A DNA stretch of 24,626 nucleotides from positions 1 to 24,626 of IMG/VR virus record IMGVR_UViG_3300008108_000402. One strand, 5' to 3'. Below the pieces are notes generated by a model. The model was not told where the DNA came from. It did no database searches and saw only the letters and a list, made by a program, of their open reading frames with translations. Origin of the DNA: a virus. The first letter of the stretch is position 1. Each line of letters starts with the position of its first letter. This document shows positions 6,347 to 24,626 of the stretch, piece by piece. Both the position numbers and the translations under genes were made by a program.

Positions 6347-7402
6347 TTAAAATTCTAATGCACTTCTATCTGCAGGAATTCCTTGCAGTTGTCTTGCCCT
6401 TTCAGCATCTATAGAATCTCCAATTGCATCATTTGCAAATGGACTTTCAGATGTCTGTGGTCTTATTGAAGTTTGAATATCACATGATCCACTATTACCT
6501 GAATTTCCGTTTGCATCAGAATATTGTCCACCAGTTGGATTATTATCCGAAGGAGATGTATTTTGAGTTGATTGATTGGGACCAGGAGCATTTGAACCTT
6601 TACAGTTATTTACACTTTCTCCTTGAAGAGATACTTCTTGCACTGAAGGACAAGCTTTATCATCATCACATCTAAAGAAATTTAAAATACCAGTAGCAAA
6701 ATCTAAAACATTGAAAAGACTATTTGCAATATTTGAAACTGCTCCAGCAATATCTCCAATGAAAGAAGATAAGGGACCCAAAACAGAATTTAAAATACCA
6801 GACATTTGAGACATTATTCCGTCAAGTAAGTCTCCAACAAAATTTTGAGCTACGCATAATGGAGCATTAATAAACTTATCAATTAACTGCGTAAGTAAAG
6901 AACCTGCAGTTTTTGCCAAACCTTTGACTATTTTATTAAATCCACAGGACAATCCATTTGTTGCTTTATTAATTAATCCAGTAAAAGCAGGTGTTTCTCC
7001 CGGAAATAAAAAAGGAAAAACTTTTTTAGCTTGTTCTTGAATTTTATTCATCACCCATCCACGAGCACCTCCTAAAATATTTTTTATATATCCAGAAATT
7101 TGTGTGGAAGCATTAGAAACTAATCTTTGTATGTATGCTGCAGTCTCTCCAACCGCCGATGCATTTGCAGAAACTAAATTTGAAAACTTTTTAACTTCTT
7201 CAACTTCATTTAATAAATTTTTTAATACTCTATTAACTCCTTTTATATTTGTATTATCAGTTTTGCAAGGACTTTGAATTGGGTATACAATTCTCCTATC
7301 TCTTGCCTGCTTGTAATATGCTTCTATTGCAGACGGAGTTAAATGTGTTTTATCAATAGCAGATTGCAGTGCTGCTGTTACTGGTGGTCCTATCGCTACC
7401 AT
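6347..7402 (-). CDS. Helical virion/baseplate protein, function unknown (351 aa)
   Basis: Begins MVAIGPPVTAALQSAIDKTH. Residues about 60-245 are predicted helical, with amphipathic and hydrophobic stretches (AETAAYIQRLVSNASTQISG-like region, GLAKTAGSLLTQLIDKFI, VLGPLSSFIGDIAGAV). These resemble coiled-coil or membrane-interacting segments. Several cysteines occur (about 45, 155, 182, 245-252 and 310). From about residue 255 the protein is low-complexity Asn/Ser/Gly/Pro with an acidic end. It lies between the gp5-OB-like gene and the NPG-repeat gene, so a baseplate or spike role is likely. I do not recognise a family. Confidence 0.6.
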   Translation of the reverse strand: MVAIGPPVTAALQSAIDKTHLTPSAIEAYYKQARDRRIVYPIQSPCKTDNTNIKGVNRVLKNLLNEVEEVKKFSNLVSANASAVGETAAYIQRLVSNASTQISGYIKNILGGARGWVMNKIQEQAKKVFPFLFPGETPAFTGLINKATNGLSCGFNKIVKGLAKTAGSLLTQLIDKFINAPLCVAQNFVGDLLDGIMSQMSGILNSVLGPLSSFIGDIAGAVSNIANSLFNVLDFATGILNFFRCDDDKACPSVQEVSLQGESVNNCKGSNAPGPNQSTQNTSPSDNNPTGGQYSDANGNSGNSGSCDIQTSIRPQTSESPFANDAIGDSIDAERARQLQGIPADRSALEF

Positions 7403-7405
7403 AAT

Positions 7406-8116
7406 TTATCCTCCCGGAACTATTCCCGTTGCTCCTATTTGTCTTTCTTGTTCAAGTAATGCCTCAACTTTTGGATCTCTAATTGTTACTCCATAGACAT
7501 CACCAACTTGAGGTCCTGCTGCTTCTCTTGCCGCTGTTCTTGCTCTCAATTCATCAATGGTTAATGGTGTAGTTGGTTTTATTCTATACTGCTCACTAGC
7601 AAATGTTGCCCTCTCTATTGGTTCAATTGCTTGAAGATAATCTGGAACAAAAGAAGCTGTTTCTGGTGGACCAGAAGTATAAGTATCGTCAAAAAGTTGA
7701 AGTCCTCCAGTCTCATCTTGAGGTTGAGACTTTTGAACCTCATTATTGGAATTAATCAATATACCATCTATATATGGTTCTTGACCTGCCATTCCATCAA
7801 GAAAAAATCCAGTAACAAGTGACCCAGAAGATAGTGTTGGAGTATCAATAAATCCACCAATACCAGATCCTCCAGTAACAGGAAGAATTACATTTGCCAT
7901 AGGCAGTTGTTCATCTGGAAGTTCTTTAGTACTTGCAGAATGCAATCCCATATAACGAACTCTATAACGATAACCCCATCCTTTTTGGGATTTAGTTTCA
8001 AAATGGGATGCTTCAATATTGTCTTGCCAAGATTCACTCGAAACAACTCTACCAAACCATCTTGGTAAAGAAGATACCGAATTTAAATCAAAGTTTCCAG
8101 AGTATGCGTTCATCAA
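7406..8116 (-). CDS. gp5-like baseplate hub protein, OB-fold domain without lysozyme (236 aa)
   Basis: Residues about 18-120 follow the layout of the T4 gp5 N-terminal OB fold: 'RWFGRVVSS', 'YRYRVRYMGLHS', 'LPDEQLPMANVILPVTGG', 'GSGIGGFIDTPTLSSGSLV' and 'GFFLDG...PYIDGIL' (compare 'FVGVVEDR', 'RVRVVGLH', 'LPWMSVIQPIT', 'GSVTGPVEGTRVYGHFLD', 'GIVLGT' in T4 gp5). The C-terminal half is Pro-rich and acidic with a helix near the end, and has no lysozyme motif. The family seats the spike on the gp27 trimer. Start: ATG at 8116 overlaps the upstream gene by 4 bases; a second ATG follows immediately. Confidence 0.7.
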   Translation of the reverse strand: MMNAYSGNFDLNSVSSLPRWFGRVVSSESWQDNIEASHFETKSQKGWGYRYRVRYMGLHSASTKELPDEQLPMANVILPVTGGSGIGGFIDTPTLSSGSLVTGFFLDGMAGQEPYIDGILINSNNEVQKSQPQDETGGLQLFDDTYTSGPPETASFVPDYLQAIEPIERATFASEQYRIKPTTPLTIDELRARTAAREAAGPQVGDVYGVTIRDPKVEALLEQERQIGATGIVPGG

Positions 8117-12761: not shown

Positions 12762-15133
12762 TATCCAACAATCCCATAAAGTCCAACATTTATAGATCTT
12801 TCATCAGCGCCACCACTAGGAGAAGTTGCTGAAAAGGATGGAACACGAGATCCAGCAGCAGATGCACCCTTCATCCCCCCAGATGCAGATTGAACAATTG
12901 GAGGTAATGTAACCATAGAACCTTGACCTGTTCGTGAAAGAGGTGTAATTTGTGGTCGATTTATATTTCTTTTTCCAAGTTTTGCAGCATTGGAATTTCT
13001 ATCCGTTAGAGATACAAGTTTATCAATTAGAGATGTTCCAAGAGTTGATACAGTATTTACTGGTAAAACATATTCTCCTGGTTGCAGAAAAGCAAGTTGT
13101 CTATCTGCAGTTGTACCTGGAATATTTCTTTCACCAAACATTCCATAATTTTCTGTGACTTTTCCGCCACCTTGTTTCTTTTGGATGGTTCTTGATGCAC
13201 CACCAAACCAACCAAAAGGATCATACCAAGGACGTTTTTTAATTAATTTTTCTTTATTTTCTTTTGGATTTGTTTTTGCTGCTAAAGGTAATAAATTTAA
13301 AGGTATATTTGCTGCAGCATTTCTTCTTTCTTTATCATAACGACTTCCCTCCAATGTCCAAGGAGAGAAGAAATTTGATGTTGGATTTCTTAAGACATCA
13401 CCAGATTTCATATTTTTTTGTTGAGAAGTTCCTAAGAAAAATGGTCTACCTCCAACATGTTTTTGAGCTTGTGATTGTAATTTTGGATTTCTTAATGCAG
13501 ATTCTGTGGCATTGATCTGCATCAATGCATCTTCCAAAGACCATCCATATTTTTTACCCTTTTCAGAATTCATAACCGCAATTGCAGCACTTTTTTTGTC
13601 AGTTATTCCCATCCAATCTGAGGAATTTGAAAAAGTTGGTTGATATTGTTTAGATGCGGTTATAATACCCTTTAAACTATTTGATGTTTGAAGAAAATTT
13701 TCCCCATACTGAGATGCTGCATGAAGTCTATTATAAAGTGACTGAGCAACATCTGCTCTTCCCTGAGGTTTATCATCTTCCAATGAAGCAATAGCTAGAA
13801 GTGCATGATAGTCTGCTGCACTTATTTTTGGAATTTGTACTTTATTACTACCAACAACACCACCATTTTTAAATAATCTACCAAATCTTGGTTGGTTAGA
13901 ACCAGAACCACCATAATGCCTATTAAGACCCAAAAATGTATCTGCACCAACTGCATCAACAGTTCTTTTATTAATTACAATTTCTCCAGGTTGAGCTGCA
14001 ATTAATTGAGTATCAGCACCAAATCCAGATATCCTGTGTCCAGTATTGTGATCAATACCATGATAACCATCTAACACTGACCCTCCACGAGCAGCACCTT
14101 GAAGAAGTCCATAAGGTGTAGTTGGTCCCATACTTCCTGTACTAGGAACCTTATCTGTCATAGTATCAGTTCCCTGAACACCAAGACCCTTTCCTGTTTG
14201 TGCTCTTGCTTTATTTGCTGACTGAACAGATGCTGCTTTTCTTTGTCCTGTGATTTCATTTGCAGCAACACCTAAACCAATAGCAGCAGCAGGAACAGCA
14301 ACCCAAGGATTTAGTAAAACTCTACCCAATCCTTTAATAGCACCTGCGATTTTTGGTATTGCTCCAATTAACTTTCCAGTTAATCCACCAACAATTGATA
14401 AGATACCTCTTACAAATTTACCAAAAGGAGTAAAGAATAAAACAAATGCCCCAAGTAAAGTGGGCCACCAATCTTTTATAAACCTTTTTAGAGTTTCTAC
14501 TTTCTTTTTATTTTTGGGATCTTTAAACCAACCAGTTAATTGAGTAAATGCTCTACCCAATAAAGTAAAGAAAATAAATTTCCAAATACGATCTATGATA
14601 CCTTGAAAAGGAGAAACAAATTTCTTTACTGCATTAGATACTGCAGACATTCCTTTTTTTACAGTTTCTAATCCTGCCTCTCTTTTTGATCTTTTTTTTG
14701 CTTCATAATTTCTTCGTTCATCTTCACTAGCACCTTCCCTAAAATTTAAAAATGAAGATAATGTATTTTTAATTGAATCTAATGGCCCTTGAAGTGGTGA
14801 TAAGTTTACTAATTGGGATTGTGGCGCTTGTACTGCTGACGGAGCAATTAAAGGTGTAGATATTGGTTGAACAGATGGTTTTAAAAACTTTGTAGTTGTT
14901 ATATTATCTGCTGTTATTTTTTTTGGTTTAGGTTTAAATCTCCCTTTTTTTCCTCTTACTCTTTTTCTTTCATTTGCAAGCAAAGCAAGTTCCTCTGGAG
15001 GAAATCGATTCGCACCAGAAACCATTGCTTCTCTGATTAGAGTGAGATAGGTATCATAATCTAAGTCAAAAACATCACTAAGACCCAATAGCCTCAAAAT
15101 TCTTTCATCAATTTTTTCGGATACTGAGTTCAT
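12761..15133 (-). CDS. Tape-measure-like tail protein with SleB-like hydrolase domain (790 aa)
   Basis: Hydrophobic helices lie at about 181-197 (RIWKFIFFTLLGRAFTQL), 218-260 (WWPTLLGAFVLFFTPFGKF) and 280-295. Two copies of a Pro-Gly-Glu module occur: 'ADTQLIAAQPGEIVINKRTV' (about 372-390) and 'ADRQLAFLQPGEYVLPVNTV' (about 676-694). PGE(F/Y)V modules beside Gly-Gly stretches are typical of tail tape-measure proteins. Residues about 430-590 ('HALLAIASLEDDKPQGRADV', 'AQSLYNRL', 'GIITASKQYQPTF') match the layout of SleB/CwlJ cell-wall hydrolases, with a candidate catalytic Glu in ASLED. The gene follows gp26-gp51, where T4 encodes hub and tape-measure proteins (27-28-29). The exact T4 counterpart cannot be fixed. 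Confidence 0.65.
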   Translation of the reverse strand: MNSVSEKIDERILRLLGLSDVFDLDYDTYLTLIREAMVSGANRFPPEELALLANERKRVRGKKGRFKPKPKKITADNITTTKFLKPSVQPISTPLIAPSAVQAPQSQLVNLSPLQGPLDSIKNTLSSFLNFREGASEDERRNYEAKKRSKREAGLETVKKGMSAVSNAVKKFVSPFQGIIDRIWKFIFFTLLGRAFTQLTGWFKDPKNKKKVETLKRFIKDWWPTLLGAFVLFFTPFGKFVRGILSIVGGLTGKLIGAIPKIAGAIKGLGRVLLNPWVAVPAAAIGLGVAANEITGQRKAASVQSANKARAQTGKGLGVQGTDTMTDKVPSTGSMGPTTPYGLLQGAARGGSVLDGYHGIDHNTGHRISGFGADTQLIAAQPGEIVINKRTVDAVGADTFLGLNRHYGGSGSNQPRFGRLFKNGGVVGSNKVQIPKISAADYHALLAIASLEDDKPQGRADVAQSLYNRLHAASQYGENFLQTSNSLKGIITASKQYQPTFSNSSDWMGITDKKSAAIAVMNSEKGKKYGWSLEDALMQINATESALRNPKLQSQAQKHVGGRPFFLGTSQQKNMKSGDVLRNPTSNFFSPWTLEGSRYDKERRNAAANIPLNLLPLAAKTNPKENKEKLIKKRPWYDPFGWFGGASRTIQKKQGGGKVTENYGMFGERNIPGTTADRQLAFLQPGEYVLPVNTVSTLGTSLIDKLVSLTDRNSNAAKLGKRNINRPQITPLSRTGQGSMVTLPPIVQSASGGMKGASAAGSRVPSFSATSPSGGADERSINVGLYGIVG

Positions 15134-15137
15134 TTTA

Positions 15138-15311
15138 TCAGCGTTGTTGTTGTTGCTTGAGTTCCTCTTCCTCTAAATGAATCTTGAGAAGACCTACATA
15201 GATGTCTCTTTCCCAAGGAATCATATTCTCAATCTCTGTTAATGAATATTTATGGTATTGTATCAGAGCAAAATTGAGTCTAAAGTAATTCTCAAGATCC
15301 ATATGAGACAT
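15138..15311 (-). CDS. 51: Baseplate hub assembly protein gp51-like (57 aa)
   Basis: A short frame: ATG at 15311-15309, reading MSHMDLENYFRLNFALIQYH then KYSLTEIENMIPWERDIYV, and TGA at 15140-15138. It fills the gap between gp26 (2 bases upstream) and the 790-aa gene (4 bases downstream). The 'Y-x-L-T-E-I-E-x-M-I-P-W-E-R-x-I-Y' phrase is the pattern of the small T4-like proteins annotated as gp51, a catalyst of hub assembly; T4 gene order 26-51 agrees. A second in-frame ATG at codon 4 is also possible. Ends in a Gln-rich tail. Confidence 0.75.
   Translation of the reverse strand: MSHMDLENYFRLNFALIQYHKYSLTEIENMIPWERDIYVGLLKIHLEEEELKQQQQR
15247..15254 (-). promoter_or_regulatory. Possible internal late promoter CATAAATA
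   Basis: The minus strand reads CATAAATA inside the gp51 gene, 7/8 to the T4 late box. It lies about 115 bases upstream of the 790-aa gene, so it may boost that gene. It is inside coding sequence and could be chance. Confidence 0.25.
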
Positions 15312-15313
15312 TC

Positions 15314-16033
15314 CTATGCGAAAAAACTTGAAAGTCCCTCCAACGTAACTTCACTCTCAACACCAGTTATTGGGTTTTCAATCTTAACTGCATGAGATAA
15401 CTTAGGCATAGTTTCAAAGAACTTTTCAATTTGCTTAAACTGAGATGAATTCATTTGATCTAAAAATTCCATCAGTTCCTTTTTGGTCACATCAGAAGTA
15501 GACCAAACTTCATCTTCAGTATAAATCTTATCAATACAAGAACCAATCAGTTCAAATGACTGATCCATCGTATTGTCAGAATTAAAATCAAAATTGCTCT
15601 TAATAAACTGATCAAGTGATGGATACTTCATTTCCATCATAATATTTTCGTCAAGTTTAATTTGTTTATTATGATCCGAATTCTTTTGAACTCCAATATC
15701 GTCTACATTGATTTTTACAGGAACTGTAGTCTCACCATCATCAGGACAAATGATAGTGACCTCAATTTCTTCTCCTACAGATTTTCCACGAATATTCAGA
15801 AAAAGGTATTCAATATCAAATGTTGGAAGCGATTCTACTTTAACTCCCCTCGTTTCAATACAACTTTTAATGACAGTTTTAATTGCTGTGGTGATCTGTT
15901 TTGTATCTTCCGATTCTAATGCAAGAACTAAAAGTTTTTCTTCTCTTACAAGGAAGGGTCTATACTTAATTGTTTGTCCGTTGGATGGCAACTCAAGTTC
16001 ATAAGTTGGCGTAGAAATCTTAGGTAAAGGCAT
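15314..16033 (-). CDS. 26: Baseplate hub subunit gp26-like (239 aa)
   Basis: Begins MPLPKISTPTYELELPSNGQ, then 'IKYRPFLVREEKLLVLALES' and 'TTAIKTVIKSCI', the pattern of gp26-family proteins of cyanophages. The middle (about 85-120) is beta-rich ('EIEVTIICPDDGETTVPVKI') and the C-terminal half is helical. It is slightly longer than T4 gp26 (208 aa). In T4, gp26 belongs to the central hub assembly, and gene 51 follows it as it does here. A late-promoter-like CTAAATA lies 28 bases upstream (16061-16067). Stop TAG at 15316-15314 is 2 bases from the gp51 start. Confidence 0.8.
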   Translation of the reverse strand: MPLPKISTPTYELELPSNGQTIKYRPFLVREEKLLVLALESEDTKQITTAIKTVIKSCIETRGVKVESLPTFDIEYLFLNIRGKSVGEEIEVTIICPDDGETTVPVKINVDDIGVQKNSDHNKQIKLDENIMMEMKYPSLDQFIKSNFDFNSDNTMDQSFELIGSCIDKIYTEDEVWSTSDVTKKELMEFLDQMNSSQFKQIEKFFETMPKLSHAVKIENPITGVESEVTLEGLSSFFA

Positions 16034-16060
16034 AATGTCCTATAGAAACTTCAGTGTGAT

Positions 16061-16067
16061 TATTTAG
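16061..16067 (-). promoter_or_regulatory. Late-promoter-like CTAAATA before gp26
   Basis: The minus strand reads CTAAATAATC in the 41-base gap between the gp54-like gene and gp26. Spacing of 28 bases to the gp26 ATG suits a T4-type late promoter. It probably drives gp26, gp51 and the hub genes after them. Confidence 0.45.
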
Positions 16068-16074
16068 AATGGAT

Positions 16075-17091
16075 TTATCTACCCAATCTATTATTTCTTA
16101 TCTGTTCTTGGGACAATGCTTGACTTCTTCTAATAGTTGGTTCTGGTGCATTAGCAACGCTATAACCAAGTTTTATAAGTTCTTCAGTTGTTGGGGTACT
16201 TTTACCACTCATTAAATCTAATATTTTTTGATCTTCTGCGTTAGGTACGCCAGGTGCTGGTTGTTGTCCCGGTTCACCTTGAGAAGAATTTGCTATGGAT
16301 TTCAAAACATAACGATTATAAGTGAATGAGACCATACATTTTAATAATTGAGATGAATCATATGAAACTGGCATTGATGCCATACTAATTGGATATGCTT
16401 GAACAAAACCATACTGCAAATAATTTCCATAAAAATCTCTTTCAAACTTCGTTATATACAGATGACTTCTATATCCTCCCGGTCCATCTGGAAATCTAAC
16501 TCTATAGTTATAATTTTTATCTGGTGCTTCGCCAGTTTCTCCCATCGCATATCTCATCCATGCTTCAAACATCCTAATTACATTATATCCACCATTAAGA
16601 GTGCCGTGATCTACATAAAAGGTTAGATCAATCTGATTATCATACTGTCTTCTGTATCCAAGTCTTTCAGTAACTCCAGTATAATCATCATTAATTTCGT
16701 TTGTTAAGATTGAAGATCCGGGTAAGGATGCTTCAGTGCAAAGCAAATTAAGAACAGTACCAGAATTGTTATCATAATAATATTTACGAATTTCTGGAAC
16801 AGATGGTGGATTTATACCACACTCAAAATGCGATGTTAATGAAGGTCTTAGTAATCTTGAAATTACCAAATCATTTGTGATTTTTCTAGGAGCTGCCCAA
16901 TTAAATCCAGATGATGCTGGAGTTATTCCGTTTCCTGGACTTGTTCCACTTCCGGAAGTTGTTGGGTTTGATGGAAGAGGAACTCCAGGTGCTGGTTGTG
17001 GACTTGAAAAAAGATTTTTAACTATTTGTTGAGATATTGGATTAGGAGGCCTAGTATCAGCAAGTCCTGGAGGAGGTGCGTCGAATGCCAT
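16075..17091 (-). CDS. 54: Baseplate tail-tube initiator, gp54-like (338 aa)
   Basis: The Pro/Gly/Ser-rich N-terminus (1-65) is probably flexible. Residues about 75-265 have the tail-tube fold pattern shared by gp54 and gp19: 'NLLCTEASLPGSSI', 'DLTFYVDHGTLNGGYNVIRM' then 'FEAWMRYA', 'YNYRVRFPDG', 'YITKFERDFYGNYLQYGFVQ' and 'AYPISMASMPVSYDSSQLLK'. Length is close to T4 gp54 (320 aa). In T4, gp54 sits on gp48 and starts tube polymerisation. Here gp48 lies on the opposite strand about 940 bases away across a divergent junction. A short basic C-terminal tail (QIRNNRLGR) follows. A second tube-like protein is the main alternative. Confidence 0.65.
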   Translation of the reverse strand: MAFDAPPPGLADTRPPNPISQQIVKNLFSSPQPAPGVPLPSNPTTSGSGTSPGNGITPASSGFNWAAPRKITNDLVISRLLRPSLTSHFECGINPPSVPEIRKYYYDNNSGTVLNLLCTEASLPGSSILTNEINDDYTGVTERLGYRRQYDNQIDLTFYVDHGTLNGGYNVIRMFEAWMRYAMGETGEAPDKNYNYRVRFPDGPGGYRSHLYITKFERDFYGNYLQYGFVQAYPISMASMPVSYDSSQLLKCMVSFTYNRYVLKSIANSSQGEPGQQPAPGVPNAEDQKILDLMSGKSTPTTEELIKLGYSVANAPEPTIRRSQALSQEQIRNNRLGR

Positions 17092-17092
17092 C

Positions 17093-17100
17093 TATAAATA
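17093..17100 (+). promoter_or_regulatory. T4-type late promoter TATAAATA
   Basis: Perfect TATAAATA on the plus strand in the 39-base gap between the divergent gp54-like and gp4 genes, 31 bases before the gp4 ATG. The phage sigma (gp55) and gp33 system is expected to use it for the gp4-gp53 operon. Confidence 0.85.
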
Positions 17101-17130
17101 CTTTTACTGTTATATTATGTATGCTGGAAA

Positions 17131-17568
17131 ATGGCAGAAAGTCTTAAGAGTATCTACAAACCATCTTATCCGGAAAAATATAAAGGTGATGCAAATAATA
17201 TAATCTGTAGGAGCAGTTGGGAGAGACGTTTTTGTCATTACTGCGATAATAATCCAAGTATTATTTCTTGGGCATCAGAAGAGTTTTGCATTAGTTATGT
17301 ATCTCCCGTAGATGGAAGAATACATCGTTACTTTCCAGACTATCTGATTAAAGTTCAAAAGTCATCAGGTAAGATAAAAACTTATGTAATTGAAGTGAAA
17401 CCAAAGAAGCAAACAGTTCCACCAAAACAAAAATCAAGAGTGACTAAATCTTACCTACACGAATGCAGAACTTATGCAGTCAATCAAGCAAAGTGGAAAG
17501 CCGCGCAAGAGTGGTGTGCAGATAGAATGTTAGAATTCAAAGTCATTACAGAAGAAGAGTTATTCTAA
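17131..17568 (+). CDS. 4: Head completion protein gp4-like (145 aa)
   Basis: The sequence follows T4 gp4 (150 aa): 'YKPSYPEKYKGDANNIICRS', 'SWERRFCHYCD', 'SPVDGRIHRYFPDYLIKV', 'YVIEVKPKKQTVPPK' and 'VNQAKWKAAQEWCADR'. gp4 acts late in head completion, before tail joining. The arrangement of Glu31 (WER), Asp70 (FPDY) and Glu88-Val-Lys90 (IEVKPKKQ) also resembles a PD-(D/E)XK (TnsA-like) nuclease core, so it may act on DNA. First gene after a perfect late promoter. Its TAA overlaps the next ATG (TAATG). Confidence 0.85.
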   Translation: MAESLKSIYKPSYPEKYKGDANNIICRSSWERRFCHYCDNNPSIISWASEEFCISYVSPVDGRIHRYFPDYLIKVQKSSGKIKTYVIEVKPKKQTVPPKQKSRVTKSYLHECRTYAVNQAKWKAAQEWCADRMLEFKVITEEELF

Positions 17569-17957
17569 TGGCAGAAGGTTTTGGAAAATATGTCGAAACA
17601 GGAACAGCAAGAACCAGAGAACTTTTAAAAAGAATTGATAAAGAAGGTGCTACTGATCCTGAAGATGTAATGATGATAATTATTGATATCTTTAAAGAAG
17701 AGGTATTATATCCAGAACCTGGAAAGTTTTATACATTTATCTATAGTCCAAAAACTCCTGATATTGAGTATGATCAACATCCGTTGATTGCTTGTACAGA
17801 GTTATTGAAGTGGGGATTTAAAGGTATCAATTTTCATTGGAGACAATCAAGACAATACACCTGGGAAGAAGTTGCAGGAAAACTTCACGTTGTTAAGTAT
17901 AATGAGTTAGATGAATTGGTTTCGTTGCAGTATGGAAAATTCCGTCTAAATAAATAA
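17568..17957 (+). CDS. Conserved-type phage protein between gp4 and gp48, function unknown (129 aa)
   Basis: Begins MAEGFGKYVETGTARTRELL with a helical first half. The central stretch 'PGKFYTFIYSPKTPDIEYDQ', 'HPLIACTELLKWGFKGINFH' resembles a 'Y-x-F-x-Y-x-P-K...D-x-x-P-L-I...G-x-N-F-H' phrase I recall from T4-like phage proteins of unknown role. The C-terminus is 'VVKYNELDELVSLQYGKFRL'. It overlaps the gp4 stop by one base, so the two are probably translationally coupled. The stop codon itself overlaps the late-promoter-like box at 17949-17956. A head-tail joining or baseplate role is suggested only by its neighbours. Confidence 0.7.
   Translation: MAEGFGKYVETGTARTRELLKRIDKEGATDPEDVMMIIIDIFKEEVLYPEPGKFYTFIYSPKTPDIEYDQHPLIACTELLKWGFKGINFHWRQSRQYTWEEVAGKLHVVKYNELDELVSLQYGKFRLNK
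17949..17956 (+). promoter_or_regulatory. Late-promoter-like AATAAATA before gp48
   Basis: The plus strand reads CTAAATAAATAAAA across the end of the 129-aa gene, giving AATAAATA (7/8 to TATAAATA), about 77 bases upstream of the gp48 ATG. It may supply extra gp48/gp53 transcript. Confidence 0.4.
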
Positions 17958-17970
17958 AAACTCCTTATCA

Positions 17971-18033
17971 ATGTCTCATACTCTACGAACAACTGAGATA
18001 TTCATTCCTCTTGTAAATGGAAGGAAGTTCTGA
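17971..18033 (+). CDS. Possible 20-aa leader peptide coupled to gp48
   Basis: ATG at 17971 opens MSHTLRTTEIFIPLVNGRKF, and the TGA at 18031-18033 overlaps the gp48 ATG (TGATG). It lies in the only sizeable gap of the plus-strand operon, just after a late-promoter-like box. The gp48 Shine-Dalgarno (GGAAGG) is inside its last codons. It has no clear Shine-Dalgarno of its own, so it could be chance. If translated, it would couple ribosome arrival to gp48. Confidence 0.35.
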   Translation: MSHTLRTTEIFIPLVNGRKF

Positions 18034-19295
18034 TGGCAACAGGATCTATTACTAGAAATTATACAAATACTACATACTATTTTTTATCTCAAGGTGCTGA
18101 TAAAGAGACTTTAATATATCAACAAATAGAAAAAAGTGAGTTTGATAGAATTAGAAATAACACATATCAAGATAGTTTTAATGGAGAAGTGCAAAGTGTA
18201 GAAGGAAACACCTATACAGATACTTTAAATGGAAAAAATTATGCTTTTGTTGGATTTTATGATGCCAATGGAAATTGGCAATCAACTGGATTATCATCAA
18301 CAGAATCTCAGTATGGTAGCGTAAGCAACTCAATACAAAATGATAAAGATTTAAAAAAACTTTTAGTTGGTTCTTCAAATACATCACCAACTAATCCAAA
18401 TCAACCAGGAACACCAGGAACTTCAACACCAACGCAATCACCAAACAACAACCAAAAGACACCAACACCACAATCCTTAGTTTATCCTATAGCAATGATA
18501 AGCACTCAACAAGATAGGATAAAGTTTACTGCAGTTACTTATGTACCAAGTGGAAATTTACAAACTGGACAAATAACTTCTCCCAATAGAACATCCACTA
18601 CAGGAAAAACACAAGTGGGACCTACAGTATTTTTACCCGTTCAGTCAGGAATAAGTGATGCTAATTCTGTAGATTGGCAGGGAGCAAATTTAAATGAAAT
18701 TGATAGACGAATAGCAGATCTTTCTGGTGGATTAATGCAAGCCAAAAATATGGAAGAAATTGGAACAAAACTTGGAAAGTTTGCAGATGTAACCGCCGAT
18801 TTAATTAGAAATTATGGCAATGAAGCAAGGGCTTATCTTGCAGGAGAAGCAGCTAGTGTTCAAAATCTTCTTGGTAGATTTGGTTCTGTTTTAAACCCAA
18901 ACCTAGAACTTCTTTTCACTGGACCACAATTAAGACCTTTTGAATTTAGTTTTAAACTATCTGCAAGAGAAAAAGATGAAGCGGATACTATAAGACAGAT
19001 TATAAACTTCTTCAAGAAAAATATGGCAGTTAAAAAAAGTAGTGACGGAGTTTTCTTAAAATCTCCAAATACATTTTTTATTGAATATATGTATAAAGGT
19101 AAACCTGGACACAAAGGTATTAATAAAATTAAAGAATGTGCTCTTACAAACTGCTCTGTTGACTATACTCCCCTTGGAACTTATATGACTTATGAAGATG
19201 GTACTATGGTTTCTTACACCTTATCACTACAGTTTCAAGAACTTGTACCAATTTATGATGAAGATTATACTGATCCAACTCAAATAGAGTACTAA
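18033..19295 (+). CDS. 48: Baseplate tail-tube cap gp48-like (420 aa)
   Basis: The C-terminal two-thirds match gp48-family layout: 'PIAMISTQQDRIKFTAVTYV' (about 150-170), 'GPTVFLPVQSGISDANSVDW' (about 202-222), 'LNPNLELLFTGPQLRPFEFS' then 'FKLSAREKDEADTIRQIINF' (about 287-326), and 'YTPLGTYMTYEDGTMVSYTL' (about 375-395). In T4, gp48 caps the hub and binds gp54 to start the tail tube. The first 150 residues are specific to this group, with a Gly/Pro/Thr/Asn-rich linker near 120-148. Slightly longer than T4 gp48 (364 aa). GGAAGG lies ahead of the start. gp53 follows one base after the stop. Confidence 0.85.
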   Translation: MATGSITRNYTNTTYYFLSQGADKETLIYQQIEKSEFDRIRNNTYQDSFNGEVQSVEGNTYTDTLNGKNYAFVGFYDANGNWQSTGLSSTESQYGSVSNSIQNDKDLKKLLVGSSNTSPTNPNQPGTPGTSTPTQSPNNNQKTPTPQSLVYPIAMISTQQDRIKFTAVTYVPSGNLQTGQITSPNRTSTTGKTQVGPTVFLPVQSGISDANSVDWQGANLNEIDRRIADLSGGLMQAKNMEEIGTKLGKFADVTADLIRNYGNEARAYLAGEAASVQNLLGRFGSVLNPNLELLFTGPQLRPFEFSFKLSAREKDEADTIRQIINFFKKNMAVKKSSDGVFLKSPNTFFIEYMYKGKPGHKGINKIKECALTNCSVDYTPLGTYMTYEDGTMVSYTLSLQFQELVPIYDEDYTDPTQIEY

Positions 19296-19296
19296 A

Positions 19297-20319
19297 ATGA
19301 CTAAGCCATATTTCAGACAAGTTCCTAACTTTGAGTATGTCTCCAGAAATCCAGGAGACAAATACATCTCGGAGTATATTCCTGTTAAAAATCTTTTCAA
19401 GCGTGGAAAATTAAGGGAAGATATTTTTGGTGATCTTGCATTCTTTGAAAAGTATTCAATCATTGCAGATGAAAGACCAGATAATGTTGCTTATAAATTT
19501 TATGGAGATTCAACATTAGATTGGGTTATTCTTCTTTCAAATAACATTCTGAACATTCAATCAGAATGGCCAATGACGCAAAGAACTTTTGATAAGGTTA
19601 TGTTAGAAAAGTATGGATCTTATGAGGAATTATATTCAGGAATTCATCACTATGAAACGGACGAAATCAAGAACTCATTAGGAATTACTGTATTAAAATC
19701 AGGAATTACAATTAGTCCAACTTGGAAAACTAACGGCAACTTTTTAGAAATGGACTCTTCTAAAATTGGTACTATTTTTTCTGGAGATACTATCACACCT
19801 TCAACAGAAGTTACTGTTTATTCTGAAAAGGAAATTCCAAACCTAGGAGTTGGAAGTCAATTTACAATAACAAATGTTGTAGAGAATGAATACAATGGAA
19901 CTCATATAGTTAGTGAAATTATTATCCAAGGAGAAACTGGAGCAATAGCATTCAAATATAATTTACCTTCTATTCCAAATATAGCATTTCCAACATTAGC
20001 GGATCCAAAGAAGGAAGAGATTTTATTTACAATTCCAGAATCATCTACTATTGTTGGAAGTTCTTATTACTACGAATACTGGGATGCTGGTCTTGGATAT
20101 TCTGTTTTAATTCCTTCAACTGCATTTGTAAAAGCAGTTACTAACTATGAGCACGAATTACGTATAGAAGAAGCAAAAAGAAATATCTACTTGCTCAAAC
20201 CAAGATATCTAAACGTAGTCTTTAATGATATGGATGATATTATGCCATATAAAAAGGGTAGTGTTCAGTATAAGAACACTACCCTTAAAAGAGGTGATAA
20301 TATCAGACTTTATGAATAA
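19297..20319 (+). CDS. 53: Baseplate wedge protein gp53-like (340 aa)
   Basis: The N-terminal 130 residues match gp53: 'PYFRQVPNFEYVSRNPGDKY', 'LAFFEKYSIIADERPDNVAY', 'KFYGDSTLDWVILLSNNILN' and 'EWPMTQRTFDKVMLEKYGSY'. The C-terminus keeps 'YEHELRIEEAKRNIYLLKPR'. Between them (about 150-265) a beta-rich insert makes it much longer than T4 gp53 (196 aa), a common cyanophage feature. gp53 joins wedges around the hub. The final 23 codons contain a perfect 13-bp hairpin (20254-20286) that acts as a terminator for the opposite strand. The gene meets gp32 tail to tail with no gap. Confidence 0.85.
   Translation: MTKPYFRQVPNFEYVSRNPGDKYISEYIPVKNLFKRGKLREDIFGDLAFFEKYSIIADERPDNVAYKFYGDSTLDWVILLSNNILNIQSEWPMTQRTFDKVMLEKYGSYEELYSGIHHYETDEIKNSLGITVLKSGITISPTWKTNGNFLEMDSSKIGTIFSGDTITPSTEVTVYSEKEIPNLGVGSQFTITNVVENEYNGTHIVSEIIIQGETGAIAFKYNLPSIPNIAFPTLADPKKEEILFTIPESSTIVGSSYYYEYWDAGLGYSVLIPSTAFVKAVTNYEHELRIEEAKRNIYLLKPRYLNVVFNDMDDIMPYKKGSVQYKNTTLKRGDNIRLYE
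20254..20286 (-). terminator. Intrinsic terminator for the gp32 transcript, inside gp53
   Basis: A perfect 13-bp stem (AAGGGTAGTGTTC pairing with GAACACTACCCTT) encloses a 7-base loop. Read on the minus strand it is followed by TTT, so the stem end gives TTTTT, then ATATGG. On the plus strand it is followed by AAAAGAGG, so it should stop only minus-strand transcription. It lies about 35 bases beyond the gp32 stop, within gp53 coding sequence. Confidence 0.8.
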
Positions 20320-21034
20320 TCAGTCATTTGCTAGTTTTGAAAAATAAGCAAGTGCATCATCTTCGTCATCATCATCTGAAGTAATCTTAGGAAGTGAAGG
20401 AGACTTACTGCGATTGTAAGACTCTTCAAGTTCTTCCATCACTTTACTTTCACGACTTGGAGTTTGAGTATAAGATTCAAACTCATCTTCCTGCTCAACC
20501 ACTGCACGAGACTTGGTAGGAGTATTAGTTCCACCAAGACCTAGAACATAATTCATACGCTTTTCAAGATCTTCATAGGTCTTGAATTGATCAGGAGCAG
20601 TTACTGCAGATAGAGAATACTCTTTCTTCCAAAGTGCTTCCAGAGCATCGTCATCATCCAGTAGAGGTGCTACACGATCAAACTCAGACTTATCGTAGTT
20701 CCAATAACCATCCTTCTTCACGATCTTGATCTTGAAGTTAGCACCCTGCCAGAAATCAAAAGGATTGATCGGATCTTCATCATCAAACTTCAATATACCA
20801 ACCACCAGGACCTTGGAATGCATGAGAATACATTTTTGCCCAAGGAAGTTCTTCACCTTCTGGTGCGGGCAGGAAACGAATCACTGCAGAACCAACACCA
20901 GTTTTATCCATTTCTGGTTTCCAGAAACGGTCATCAGGACCAGTAGAAGTGGTACTCATTTTTTCTACTTGCTTCACAAGTTTCTCAGTCAGTGAACCAA
21001 GCGAAGATTGCTTTTTAAGATTTTGAAATGACAT
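20320..21034 (-). pseudogene. 32: ssDNA-binding protein gp32-like, broken by an internal deletion with frame change
   Basis: The first part (21034 to about 20786) starts MSFQNLKKQSSLGSLTEKLV and runs through 'VIRFLPAPEGEELPWAKMYS' and 'HAFQGPGGWYIE', then hits TGA at 20785-20783. A second frame, from about 20790 to 20320, continues with 'KFDDEDPINPFDFWQGANFK', 'GYWNYDKSEFD', 'LLDDDDALEALWKKEYSL' and an acidic tail 'SDDDDEDDALAYFSKLAND'. Against T4 gp32 (301 aa), WYIE falls near residue 75 and the second part resumes near 160, so roughly 80-90 residues of the DNA-binding core are missing, including the zinc-ligand region. About 238 residues remain over two frames. Both ends look well conserved, so the loss is recent or an assembly or cloning error. 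Promoter and terminator are intact. Confidence 0.85.
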
Positions 21035-21080
21035 TTGGATTACCTCGTATTAGTAGGATTTGGCTCTTGTGTACTTCGTT

Positions 21081-21109
21081 ATTCTACAGGTCAGAACCTG
21101 TTTTGTCAA
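21081..21109 (-). promoter_or_regulatory. Sigma-70-type promoter of gp32 with dyad in the spacer
   Basis: On the minus strand TTGACA (21109-21104), exactly 17 bases, then TAGAAT (21086-21081). The spacer carries a perfect 6-bp inverted repeat, ACAGGT-TCTG-ACCTGT (21101-21086), touching the -10. The -35 lies in the last codons of the upstream gene. A Shine-Dalgarno-like GAGG precedes the gp32 ATG. Confidence 0.8.
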
Positions 21110-21428
21110 TCTGTTCTTTCATTACATCAAGCATTCTTGACATATTATTGAGAATGATATTCATATCAGTGCCAGGAGGCATTCCCATCATAACTGCAGA
21201 TTCAACAACTCTTTCTTTCATATCAACTGCTTCTGGATCATCAGATAAACTTAGTCTTGTATAAAGAACTTTTTGCTTATCTAAAAGTCTCTCTAGAACT
21301 TCAACGTGTTCCAGTTTCTCTTCTTTACTCATCGTAGGAAACTTAAAAATGTTCCCATAGATTTGCTCTTGAAGTTCTGCAATCTCAGTCATCTCTGCAC
21401 GGACGACTTCGGAACTAAAGAAACTCAT
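21084..21428 (-). CDS. DUF1825-like protein between gp59 and gp32 (114 aa)
   Basis: Begins MSFFSSEVVRAEMTEIAELQ, followed by 'MSKEEKLEHVEVLERLLDKQ', 'KVLYTRLSLSDDPEA' and a helical end with 'NNMSRMLDVMKEQID'. The order 'M-x-F-F-x-S-x-x-V-x-x-E', a 'K...E-x-L-x-x-L-x-D/E-x-x-x-V-x-x-x-R-x-x-L-S-D-D/E' block and a final Met-rich helix match my recollection of DUF1825 proteins, common in cyanobacteria. It is all-helical and probably coiled-coil. It overlaps the gp59 stop by 4 bases and its 3' end contains the gp32 promoter. Its position suggests replication-linked expression; function unknown. A host-derived origin is possible. Confidence 0.6.
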   Translation of the reverse strand: MSFFSSEVVRAEMTEIAELQEQIYGNIFKFPTMSKEEKLEHVEVLERLLDKQKVLYTRLSLSDDPEAVDMKERVVESAVMMGMPPGTDMNIILNNMSRMLDVMKEQIDKTGSDL

Positions 21429-22021
21429 TGATCCTCCAAAATAATATCTTTCAAGATTTTACGAAAACGAAATACGTCAATATTTAGGAATGGATTATAC
21501 TTTTTAATTCTACGACTAACGGTTTCCCACACTGGATCTTGAAGTTTTTTATCAAAATTTTTTGAATAAGCAAAGATTTTATCAAACAAAACCATTGTTT
21601 CCAAAGAGACCTGTCCACTTAGATATCTCTTTAGAAGAACTGGATGTCCTTTAGAACATTTAAAGACATCCTCAAATTTATTTTCTTCAAATAATGTTTG
21701 ACTTTCTTCTTTAAAAATATAAGACAATGATTGTATTTTCTTTTGCCAATTTTGATATCTTGCTTCTCCTTCTTTCATCATCTCACCAATCCAAAGTGAT
21801 TCTGGATCATTGCAAGATACAAAATTAGCAACAAAAAAATCTATAACTTCTTGATCCGATTTTTGTCGTGAGACCTTTTCAAACCACATCCTGTCCTTCC
21901 TTTTGTAAAAAGACTGAATTGTTGCACGACTTTTACCACAGTATTTGTGATAATCATAACTGTCTTTAGTGAAATGATTTTTTAAAGACAAATAACATTT
22001 ATAAGCATCAAAAGGCATCAT
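21425..22021 (-). CDS. 59: Helicase loader gp59-like (198 aa)
   Basis: The sequence tracks T4 gp59 (217 aa): 'YKCYLSLKNHFTKDSYDYHK', 'YKRKDRMWFEKVSRQKSDQE', 'VIDFFVANFVSCNDPESLWI', 'YQNWQKKIQSLSYIFKEESQ', 'LLKRYLSGQVSLETMVLFDK' and 'PVWETVSRRIKKYNPFLNID'. gp59 loads the gp41 helicase onto gp32-coated DNA at forks and recombination intermediates, so its place just ahead of gp32 fits. The start is one of two tandem ATGs (22021 or 22018). The leader has no Shine-Dalgarno but carries the 53-bp conserved element. Confidence 0.88.
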   Translation of the reverse strand: MMPFDAYKCYLSLKNHFTKDSYDYHKYCGKSRATIQSFYKRKDRMWFEKVSRQKSDQEVIDFFVANFVSCNDPESLWIGEMMKEGEARYQNWQKKIQSLSYIFKEESQTLFEENKFEDVFKCSKGHPVLLKRYLSGQVSLETMVLFDKIFAYSKNFDKKLQDPVWETVSRRIKKYNPFLNIDVFRFRKILKDIILEDQ

Positions 22022-22073
22022 TCAAAAAAGTAATATAGGGAAATTTTTACCGGAATTTTTTCCGACCAAAAGT
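22021..22073 (-). repeat. 53-bp conserved leader element, copy A
   Basis: Partner of 908-960: 43/53 identical without gaps. It fills the gap between gp33 (stop 3 bases upstream) and gp59, and its last base is the A of the first gp59 ATG. The copy contains CCCTATATTAC, a -10-like TATATT, but no matching -35. The variable 7 bases between TTTCC and ACTTTTTTGAA are where the two copies differ most. Confidence 0.75.
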
Positions 22074-22076
22074 GAA

Positions 22077-22334
22077 TTAAAAAATTAATTTTGCGCGGGA
22101 AGTTTTCTTGAGAAAGTTAAGTTCCATTGCTTCGTACTTAATCTTTTCCTTAAGAGGTTTTGAAATAAGTTTGGGAACAGATTCCAAATCAATATTGTTT
22201 TGCTCACAGAAATAAACAACCGCATCAATATAATTCATATCAGGATTTACCTGAACAAGACTTTCAATCTCCTGAGCAAACCGTGATGGGCAAAAGAATT
22301 TACTTTCAAGTACCTTTTCTAATTCATTCTCCAT
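22077..22334 (-). CDS. 33: Late transcription coactivator gp33-like (85 aa)
   Basis: The second half resembles T4 gp33: 'DMNYIDAVVYFCEQNNIDLE', 'SVPKLISKPLKEKIKYEAME' and 'LNFLKK' against 'GMSYLEATTAFLEENSIPET', 'QFAKFIPSGIIEKIQSEAID' and 'ENLLRP'. gp33 links RNA polymerase on late promoters to the sliding clamp, working with the gp55 sigma. The frame can be extended 8 codons to a TTG at 22358, but the ATG at 22334 (MENELEKV) with AGGT just upstream is the better start; it overlaps the exonuclease end by 11 bases. Slightly shorter than T4 gp33 (112 aa). Confidence 0.8.
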   Translation of the reverse strand: MENELEKVLESKFFCPSRFAQEIESLVQVNPDMNYIDAVVYFCEQNNIDLESVPKLISKPLKEKIKYEAMELNFLKKTSRAKLIF

Positions 22335-23004
22335 CTGACCTAGTATTGTGATGTACAAATTCTTTAATATAACGAACTAATAACTTAATATAATCTCCTT
22401 TGTTTCTTTTGTCAAATACCTTGACTTCTCCACCAGGAGTAACCATTAATGTGATAAGTTTTTTAACGACTTGTCCTGTACGTTCATAATAAGCAGCAGC
22501 ATAAAATGTTTCTTGAACAAAGTAGTTTTCAAGCCATTCTTCCGGTTTAATTTTTTCAGAAGTTTTAAAGTCTATGACTGCAAGTTCTCCCTCATATTCC
22601 CCAATACAATCCACTCTACCAGCGAGTCCCAGATATTCGGAATATAAAGTCCTTTCAATTGCGTGAATATTATTTATCTTATCAAGATAAGGTTTTGCGT
22701 GATGAAACATAATCTTTGTAATTGGTTGATAGTTATTCCAATCCAATTCTTTATTTTCCAAATAATCCTGACAAGCTTGGTGAAAATCTGTTCCTCTTGC
22801 TGTTGCTCTTTTTGTAATGCGGTTTGCTTCTTCCAGACCCACACGCTTTCGCCAATTAATGAAGATTTGACGATTGTAGAATGAGGTAACTGAAGTAATT
22901 GATGGCACCCATTGATCATCTGGAAGATGATACAACCGAATACCATTTGTTTCTTTCTTTTCTAGTTCAAGATCACCTAAAAAATTATGATGAGTAAAGG
23001 TCAT
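22324..23004 (-). CDS. PD-(D/E)XK exonuclease, RecB/Cas4-like family (226 aa)
   Basis: Nuclease motifs are in the expected order: His75 in 'RGTDFHQACQDYL', 'GLAGRVDCIGEYEGELAVID' with Asp132, 'VIDFKTSEK' with Asp145-Phe-Lys147, and 'VQETFYAAAY' (Gln164 to Tyr168, the QxxxY motif). This is the layout of the small RecB-like nucleases, including Cas4 and mitochondrial MGME1. The cysteines expected of Cas4 are absent, so it is more like the MGME1/phage exonuclease group. It probably trims DNA ends in recombination or host DNA breakdown. It overlaps phoH by 4 bases and gp33 by 11, forming one translation-coupled block. Confidence 0.8.
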   Translation of the reverse strand: MTFTHHNFLGDLELEKKETNGIRLYHLPDDQWVPSITSVTSFYNRQIFINWRKRVGLEEANRITKRATARGTDFHQACQDYLENKELDWNNYQPITKIMFHHAKPYLDKINNIHAIERTLYSEYLGLAGRVDCIGEYEGELAVIDFKTSEKIKPEEWLENYFVQETFYAAAYYERTGQVVKKLITLMVTPGGEVKVFDKRNKGDYIKLLVRYIKEFVHHNTRSDGE

Positions 23005-23756
23005 AGATTTAGTTCATGTTTTGCAATTAGATATTCCTTAACTAGTCCGCTACGGCAAACATCTTCAATACCAAACTCAATAATATCAAAAGAAGGCATT
23101 ACCCGCAAGATTCTCATAAAATCAATAATACCGTTCCTTTCATTTGTTTTAACTAAATCAGTCTGTGTAGCATCACCACAGAACATAATTTTACTATTCT
23201 CACCTACACGAGTAATAATAGAATCACTTTCGTGGAAATTTAAATTTTGAAACTCATCTACAATGATAATTGCATTATCCAAAGTAGTTCCGCGAATAAA
23301 AGAAGTAGACCAAAAACTAATAGTTCCTTGAGTTTTGAGGTTTCCATAGAGCATTTCAAACGATGCGTCGTCTGGCATTTCAAACATATACTTTACCATA
23401 TTCTTATAGGGAATTTGATAAAGAGAAGATTTGTCTTCGTGGTCTCCTGGAAGAAAACCAATCTCCCGAGTTGCAACAAGAGATCTTACAATATAAATTT
23501 TTTCATATGGGGTTCTTTCATCTAATACATCTTTAAGAGCATTGTAAAGAGTAATAAAGGTTTTGCCTGTTCCAGAACAACCATATGCAATTAGATTCTG
23601 ATTTTTTTTATAAGCGTCAAAAAGTTTCTTTTGATTTTCTGTAAGAGGTTCAATTTCTCTCATTAAATCAGAACTAATTGGCTTCTTACGCTTCATTTGC
23701 CTTGCGGTCATTCCAACACCAATTGGTTGATCTTCTTTCCTATTTCTTCTTGCCAT
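23001..23756 (-). CDS. phoH: PhoH-like P-loop ATPase (251 aa)
   Basis: Walker A is GCSGTGKT (residues 59-66). Walker B is IIIVDEFQ (163-170), with D-E-x-Q typical of PhoH, and a sensor-like MFCGDATQTD follows at 191-200. 'RSLVATREIGFLPGDHEDK' (91-109) is the second family signature (R-P-...-G-x-L-P-G). The basic N-terminus (1-26) may bind nucleic acid. PhoH is found in nearly all marine T4-like phages; it has been linked to phosphate stress, but its action is not settled and an RNA-helicase-like role has been suggested. It sits between an 82-aa gene and the exonuclease. No Pho box is evident here. Confidence 0.93.
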   Translation of the reverse strand: MARRNRKEDQPIGVGMTARQMKRKKPISSDLMREIEPLTENQKKLFDAYKKNQNLIAYGCSGTGKTFITLYNALKDVLDERTPYEKIYIVRSLVATREIGFLPGDHEDKSSLYQIPYKNMVKYMFEMPDDASFEMLYGNLKTQGTISFWSTSFIRGTTLDNAIIIVDEFQNLNFHESDSIITRVGENSKIMFCGDATQTDLVKTNERNGIIDFMRILRVMPSFDIIEFGIEDVCRSGLVKEYLIAKHELNL

Positions 23757-23762
23757 ATGAAA

Positions 23763-24011
23763 TTAAATTGGTTTTACTTTTGATCCTGGCATTTTAGATG
23801 CTCTATGAAGAACATCGTTCCATCCTGGATGTGATTTTTTAAGTCGGTCATAAACTTCACCAACTTCACCAGAAGCAGGACAAGTTGATGGATCTGACCA
23901 ATCTCTATCCCACTCTGGATTGTCTTTTTTCCACTGATCCCAATCATGAACACTCATGCTCACTTCTTTCTGTTCACCAGTAGTTTTATTATAAACTGGA
24001 TATGTTGCCAA
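23763..24011 (-). CDS. Conserved-type small phage protein, TTG start (82 aa)
   Basis: The start is TTG at 24011-24009, supported by GGAGG seven bases upstream; no ATG lies nearby. The product reads MATYPVYNKTTGEQKEVSMS, then 'DWDQWKKDNPEWDRDW', 'CPASGEVGEVYDRLKK' and 'VLHRASKMPGSKVKPI'. The opening 'YxVYNKTTGEQKEVSMS' resembles the FmdB-like beta hairpin of small T4-like phage proteins ('TYEFxxxxTGExFE...S'), but the zinc-ribbon cysteines are missing (only one Cys). Function unknown. A CTAAATA late box (24038-24044) precedes it, so it may be expressed late even though it sits in a metabolism cluster. Confidence 0.75.
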   Translation of the reverse strand: MATYPVYNKTTGEQKEVSMSVHDWDQWKKDNPEWDRDWSDPSTCPASGEVGEVYDRLKKSHPGWNDVLHRASKMPGSKVKPI

Positions 24012-24037
24012 GTTTATTCCTCCATTTTATATAAGGA

Positions 24038-24044
24038 TATTTAG
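24038..24044 (-). promoter_or_regulatory. Late-promoter-like CTAAATA at the thyX stop
   Basis: The minus strand reads GACTAAATATCC over the thyX stop codon, 27 bases upstream of the 82-aa gene start. Spacing fits a T4-type late promoter, which could add late transcription of the 82-aa protein and phoH. Confidence 0.4.
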
Positions 24045-24626
24045 TCTATACGAATTGATGGTTGAATACTTTCACAATCATCACAGTTATCACGAGTCCA
24101 ACCAAGAGCAGTAGACACTGCAGGGAATTGACAAGTAAAAATACAACGAATTGCTTCTGCAATATCCATATGTTCCTTCTGTGTGCCGTGCGCTGAACGT
24201 AAATCAATATAATGAATCCAAGACCTCACAGAACCCGTCATATAAAGTCTTGTGGGGGTTGCTAAGGGTAATACGAACCTTGCACACTCCTTAGCAACAC
24301 CCTTGTCCAGAAGTCGGTTGTAGAGTCTCTGGGACTGCTCAAAATGCATTCTAATATCTTCTAGTAAAGTGAGTTTCAGATAGTCTCCAAGGTCATCAAT
24401 ACTGTTCTGGCGATTCTTATCATCTTGCCTACGAAGTTCAGGAAGTGGAATTGATTCATTCAGAAGATTTGTGTCAGCATACCTCTGACTAAATTCTTGA
24501 AAAGTAAAGCTCCTATGACGAAGAATTTGAGCTGCAATACCTCTTGTAGTATTAATCTCTACACTCATCACTGCTTGCTCAAAGATACTCCAGTGTTGAT
24601 GTTTAATACAGTACTTAAGTAATCCA
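24041..24626 (-). CDS. thyX: Flavin-dependent thymidylate synthase ThyX, 5' end beyond the window
   Basis: The open frame continues to the window edge. Upstream of the first GTG/ATG it reads 'GLLKYCIKHQHWSIFEQAV', a typical ThyX lead-in, so the true start is outside and at least 194 residues are present. The ThyX motif is clear: RHRSFTFQEFSQR, i.e. RHR-x7-S, which binds FAD and dUMP. 'PLATPTRLYMTGSVRSWIHY', 'DLRSAHGTQKEHMDIAEAIR' is the expected C-terminal core with the conserved Arg. ThyX makes dTMP from dUMP using methylenetetrahydrofolate and FADH2, supplying thymidine for AT-rich phage DNA. Stop TAA at 24043-24041. Confidence 0.95.
   Translation of the reverse strand, partial: GLLKYCIKHQHWSIFEQAVMSVEINTTRGIAAQILRHRSFTFQEFSQRYADTNLLNESIPLPELRRQDDKNRQNSIDDLGDYLKLTLLEDIRMHFEQSQRLYNRLLDKGVAKECARFVLPLATPTRLYMTGSVRSWIHYIDLRSAHGTQKEHMDIAEAIRCIFTCQFPAVSTALGWTRDNCDDCESIQPSIRID

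Follow-up and report, generated by a model that had tools for sequence, protein, structure and literature searches.

The window (the whole stretch of viral DNA analysed here, 24,626 bases) carries a gp32 gene of 715 nt, which its ORFs and their translations place in two frames at positions 20320–21034 on the minus strand. The gene is flanked by a baseplate wedge gene and, at its other end, by a DUF1825-type gene and a helicase loader, and it adjoins the latter two as in the phages Bellamy and SynMITS9220M01. The baseplate wedge protein itself (19297–20319, plus strand) has 340 aa compared with 230 in SynMITS9220M01, the unmatched part lying between residues 139 and 261. The features of the gp32 locus, including those defined by comparison with other IMG/VR contigs, are as follows.

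20783–21034, minus strand: gp32 5' fragment, an 83-codon ORF from 21034 with 82 residues of good gp32 (ending GGWYIE), then V and a stop; the flank is identical in contigs L087, L090 and L093
20320–20790, minus strand: gp32 3' remainder, about 156 residues and a stop, in a frame that differs from that of the 5' fragment
20789–20790, minus strand: junction, lacking 236 nt that three contigs of otherwise identical sequence contain; ambiguous by 1 nt (microhomology)
20675–20789, minus strand: the window's portion of a 133-nt stretch that a second strain (contigs L175, L176 and L177) shares without a mismatch; the junction lies 18 nt inside this stretch, in which three other contigs end
14797–24626, no strand assigned: stretch covered by contigs L174, L093, L087 and L090, which are 100% identical to it outside the gap

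A tblastn search of the window with Bellamy gp32 returned two pieces in two frames, residues 1–82 and then the C-terminal part. The 5' piece matches positions 2–36 of the Pfam gp32 profile (PF08804) with 25.0 bits, just below the curated cut-off of 26.8, and the 3' piece matches positions 132–207 with 50 bits, so that both still match gp32 profiles (Pfam and PHROGs). The intact gp32 of L093 spans profile positions 2–207 in one frame, whereas the window copy does not cover the full core. ORFs, tblastn and Pfam thus bear out the sequence-only reading of a two-frame gp32, in which an 82-residue start meets the last 156 or so residues; the join is at 20789/20790.

Otherwise identical contigs without the gap

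Three IMG/VR contigs, which carry three different metagenome numbers, match the window at 100% identity on both sides of the join: L093 (3300008120_002281) along 16652–20789 and 20789–22738, L087 (3300031951_011569) along 18933–20789 and 20789–22807, and L090 (3300008448_006060) along 20694–20789 and 20789–24626. All three contain an extra 236 nt at the join, mutually identical, which restore a single reading frame; gp32 has 316 aa in L087 and L093, and L090 ends inside the gene after 192 residues. Among viral contigs, only these three contain a 50-mer taken from the missing 236 nt. A fourth contig, L174 (3300031758_002882), is 100% identical to window positions 14797–20760 (5,964 bases), but it starts 29 nt short of the join and is uninformative there. 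A 50-mer taken from window positions 7300–7420 matched no viral contig, and validation by identity thus begins at 14797.

From these records, the window genotype is predicted to carry an ordinary intact gp32 of 316 codons. Gap-free contigs with 100% identical flanks under three metagenome numbers lend strong support to the earlier suggestion of a recent event, or else to an artefact. The size first proposed for the loss, 250–270 bases or 80–90 residues, has to be revised, as exactly 236 nt (78 codons plus 2 nt) are missing relative to the intact contigs. The split gp32 is a correct observation with an ordinary cause, namely a private 236-nt gap in one assembled record.

The right end of the window (24626) coincides to the base with an end of L090 (its position 1). 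This could reflect either a common assembly break point or an origin of L090 in the window's own sample, in which case that sample would hold the gap-free form.

gp32 in relatives and the extent of the loss

Comparison was extended to 161 distinct gp32 records, comprising 157 IMG/VR contigs and four phage records. IMG/VR was scanned with the C-terminal piece and the N-terminal piece (best 80 matches each), with a 38-mer from the left flank and with a 71-mer from the right flank; the four phage records are those examined at gp32 among 478 blastn matches, and the sample represents near relatives rather than all of them. These counts leave out 16 second-copy loci, the window copy (L001) and L179, which is the same record as L004. 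A record was taken to span the region if its match starts at residue 75 or before, a rule by which L036, starting at residue 78, was excluded although it holds residues 83–161.

Among the matches listed, gp32 is unbroken across the region in 155 of the 161 distinct records, the remaining six, L036 among them, having an end too close to it; none of the 155 spanning records has a stop, a frame change or any missing residue within 83–161. Neither the idea of two reduced gp32 proteins acting together nor that of related phages with the same short two-frame gene, both raised from the sequence alone, finds an example in these 155 records. The junction itself was found in no other viral contig, either as an exact 23-mer or as a degenerate 24-mer, in a search from which the window's own or a very near record was possibly excluded. 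On the records compared, the deletion is apparently confined to a single assembled record, and nothing suggests that it characterises a lineage.

Relative to the intact contigs, residues 83–161 of the 316-residue gp32 are absent from the window, and the core between PF08804 profile positions 37 and 131 is missing. Counted by hand on the alignment, the lost residues align with about residues 76–154 of the solved gp32 structure 8gme. The missing region is also where the zinc-ligand cysteines of T4 gp32 would align, and loss of the zinc-ligand region had been proposed. The aligned region is indeed absent, but no cysteine zinc site is lost with it, because the intact gp32 of L093 contains no cysteine and, among the matches listed, the aligned part is without cysteine in 167 of 170 spanning gp32 loci (second copies of contigs included). 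We therefore reject zinc-ligand loss through the gap, the cysteines being already absent from the intact protein; the lack of T4-type zinc-ligand cysteines belongs to this gp32 branch and is not a result of the gap.

A second split gene is found elsewhere in the window, where a baseplate hub/tail lysozyme gene (gp5-like) is divided between the adjacent minus-strand ORFs 6347–7402 and 7406–8116. These ORFs encode 351 and 236 aa and match PHROG 1922 at positions 214–446 and 20–135, respectively, and GGGAGGAT lies shortly upstream of the ATG of the second gp5-like ORF. Records of two of 12 relatives, G011 (L115) and G005 (L010), have a separate short N-terminal frame together with a 577-aa frame; the short frame has 199 aa in G011, where the match includes a TAA, and 184 aa in G005. 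Both parts lie in one frame of 509–643 aa in seven of the 12 records, and the remaining three gave no match. The gp5-like split looks like a real, clade-specific split and not a lesion.

Origin of the gap

We regard the gap as probably an artefact of assembly or library preparation, a reading that we favour over a real defective genome. Assembly paths could fork at the 133-nt identical stretch shared by two strains; a chimeric or mis-joined piece at such a fork, made during library preparation or assembly, would then skip the 236 nt, and the resulting gap in gp32 would have no function. The artefact is favoured because the right edge of the deletion lies inside this stretch, which is also a site of breaks in other contigs. 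Of the stretch, 114–115 nt remain in the window's right-hand piece, and three of the eight contigs compared end within it: L178 begins only 2 nt away from the right edge and holds 113 nt, L090 reaches 114 nt into the stretch from the opposite side, and L174 holds 86 nt. It is the clustering of the L178 and L090 ends with the right edge that raises the suspicion of a fork in the assembly graph, although L178 was retrieved with the 71-mer that lies inside the stretch, a search that favours contigs there. The left edge is not at the end of any shared stretch of at least 38 nt that was found.

Several observations temper this explanation. The link of the second strain to the window genotype, which speaks for a fork in that L177 (second strain) and L174 (window genotype) both bear the metagenome number 3300031758, extends to the sample of L174 and not to that of L090 or of the window. 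The window contains no N and the overlap at the join is only 1 nt, so that a k-mer assembler would normally need reads crossing the junction, which argues against a join made purely by computation. An otherwise identical gap-free sequence exists in L087, L090 and L093, but it would equally exist after a real recent deletion.

Such a deletion, present in part of the phage population and leaving a genome that is dead or helped by co-infecting intact phages, is the main alternative; we consider it possible but on balance doubtful. Flanks 100% identical to the intact genotype are what a very recent event would leave, and the contig crosses the join without N. A 7-nt inverted repeat whose arms lie at the two edges of the deletion could in addition have formed the base of a fold across which a polymerase jumped. 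Within 7 nt, only 0.43% of the position pairs with this spacing in L093 are as good; with wider limits the repeat is less rare (1.3% at 10 nt and 4.0% at 15 nt), and it could also have acted in a polymerase step of library preparation. Such a repeat is more in keeping with an event at the molecular level, whether cellular or during library preparation, than with a join made by computation alone. Folding of the strand in this region is unremarkable (z = −1.35, with 16 of 200 shuffles folding as well), and no second contig with the junction was found among the viral contigs. Direct repeats at the edges were rejected as a cause of deletion, the best of them (4 nt within 6 nt) being equalled by 31% of position pairs. 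The coincidences of the edges with the shared stretch and with the inverted repeat were both noticed after the fact, and they point in different ways.

The function of the gene also bears on this choice. gp32 is essential in T4, which makes a frameshifted gp32 unlikely as the main allele in the sample; nor would a frameshift in an essential gene be expected to end up as the allele that is assembled. That the deletion is both real and common enough to have been assembled as such, and that the window thus represents a natural defective cyanophage living on gp32 from co-infecting phages of the same genotype, is in our view highly unlikely. If the deletion were real and present at high frequency, it would point to helper-dependent defective cyanophages in nature. 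Of the two origins named in the sequence-only reading, a mutant or defective genome and an assembly or cloning deletion, the artefact is the more probable; that the event is either recent or artefactual holds in both cases.

It is most improbable that this lineage has a working gp32 in shortened or two-part form, whether or not frameshifting takes place at the join. Both pieces still match gp32 profiles, and the stop context GTT TGA at the join, with the C-terminal frame at +1, loosely resembles the frameshift site of prfB. Shifting by +1 at GTT TGA would bring the frames together, but the core from profile position 37 to 131 would still be absent from the product, the otherwise identical genotype occurs without the gap under three metagenome numbers, and none of the 155 spanning records among the matches listed is alike. 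Equally hard to credit is the suggestion that a second gp32 elsewhere in the genome supplies the lost function, for which the window, a linear fragment of only 24.6 kb, leaves room but which is unsupported by relatives, all seven of whose records (36–258 kb, two of them complete genomes by title) have a single gp32 match.

As a form of the gene, the gap is unimportant. It serves rather as a caution, in that a startling loss from an essential gene in a single metagenomic contig was resolved by otherwise identical intact contigs.

Relation to known systems

The gene corresponds to Kyanoviridae gp32 (PHROG 224, PF08804), being the same gene in the same place as in the Synechococcus phages Bellamy and SynMITS9220M01, and the IMG/VR contigs L087, L090 and L093 have identical sequence to the left and to the right of the join. 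In contrast to Kyanoviridae gp32, the window copy is without 236 nt, changes frame and lacks residues 83–161. Deletions and chimeras that arise during assembly or library preparation occur in metagenomic viral contigs. The overlap of 1 nt at the join sets the window apart from known assembly artefacts; the gap resembles such deletions and chimeras in having turned up in one record only among those searched, in its near-blunt join and in its position at a stretch shared between strains.
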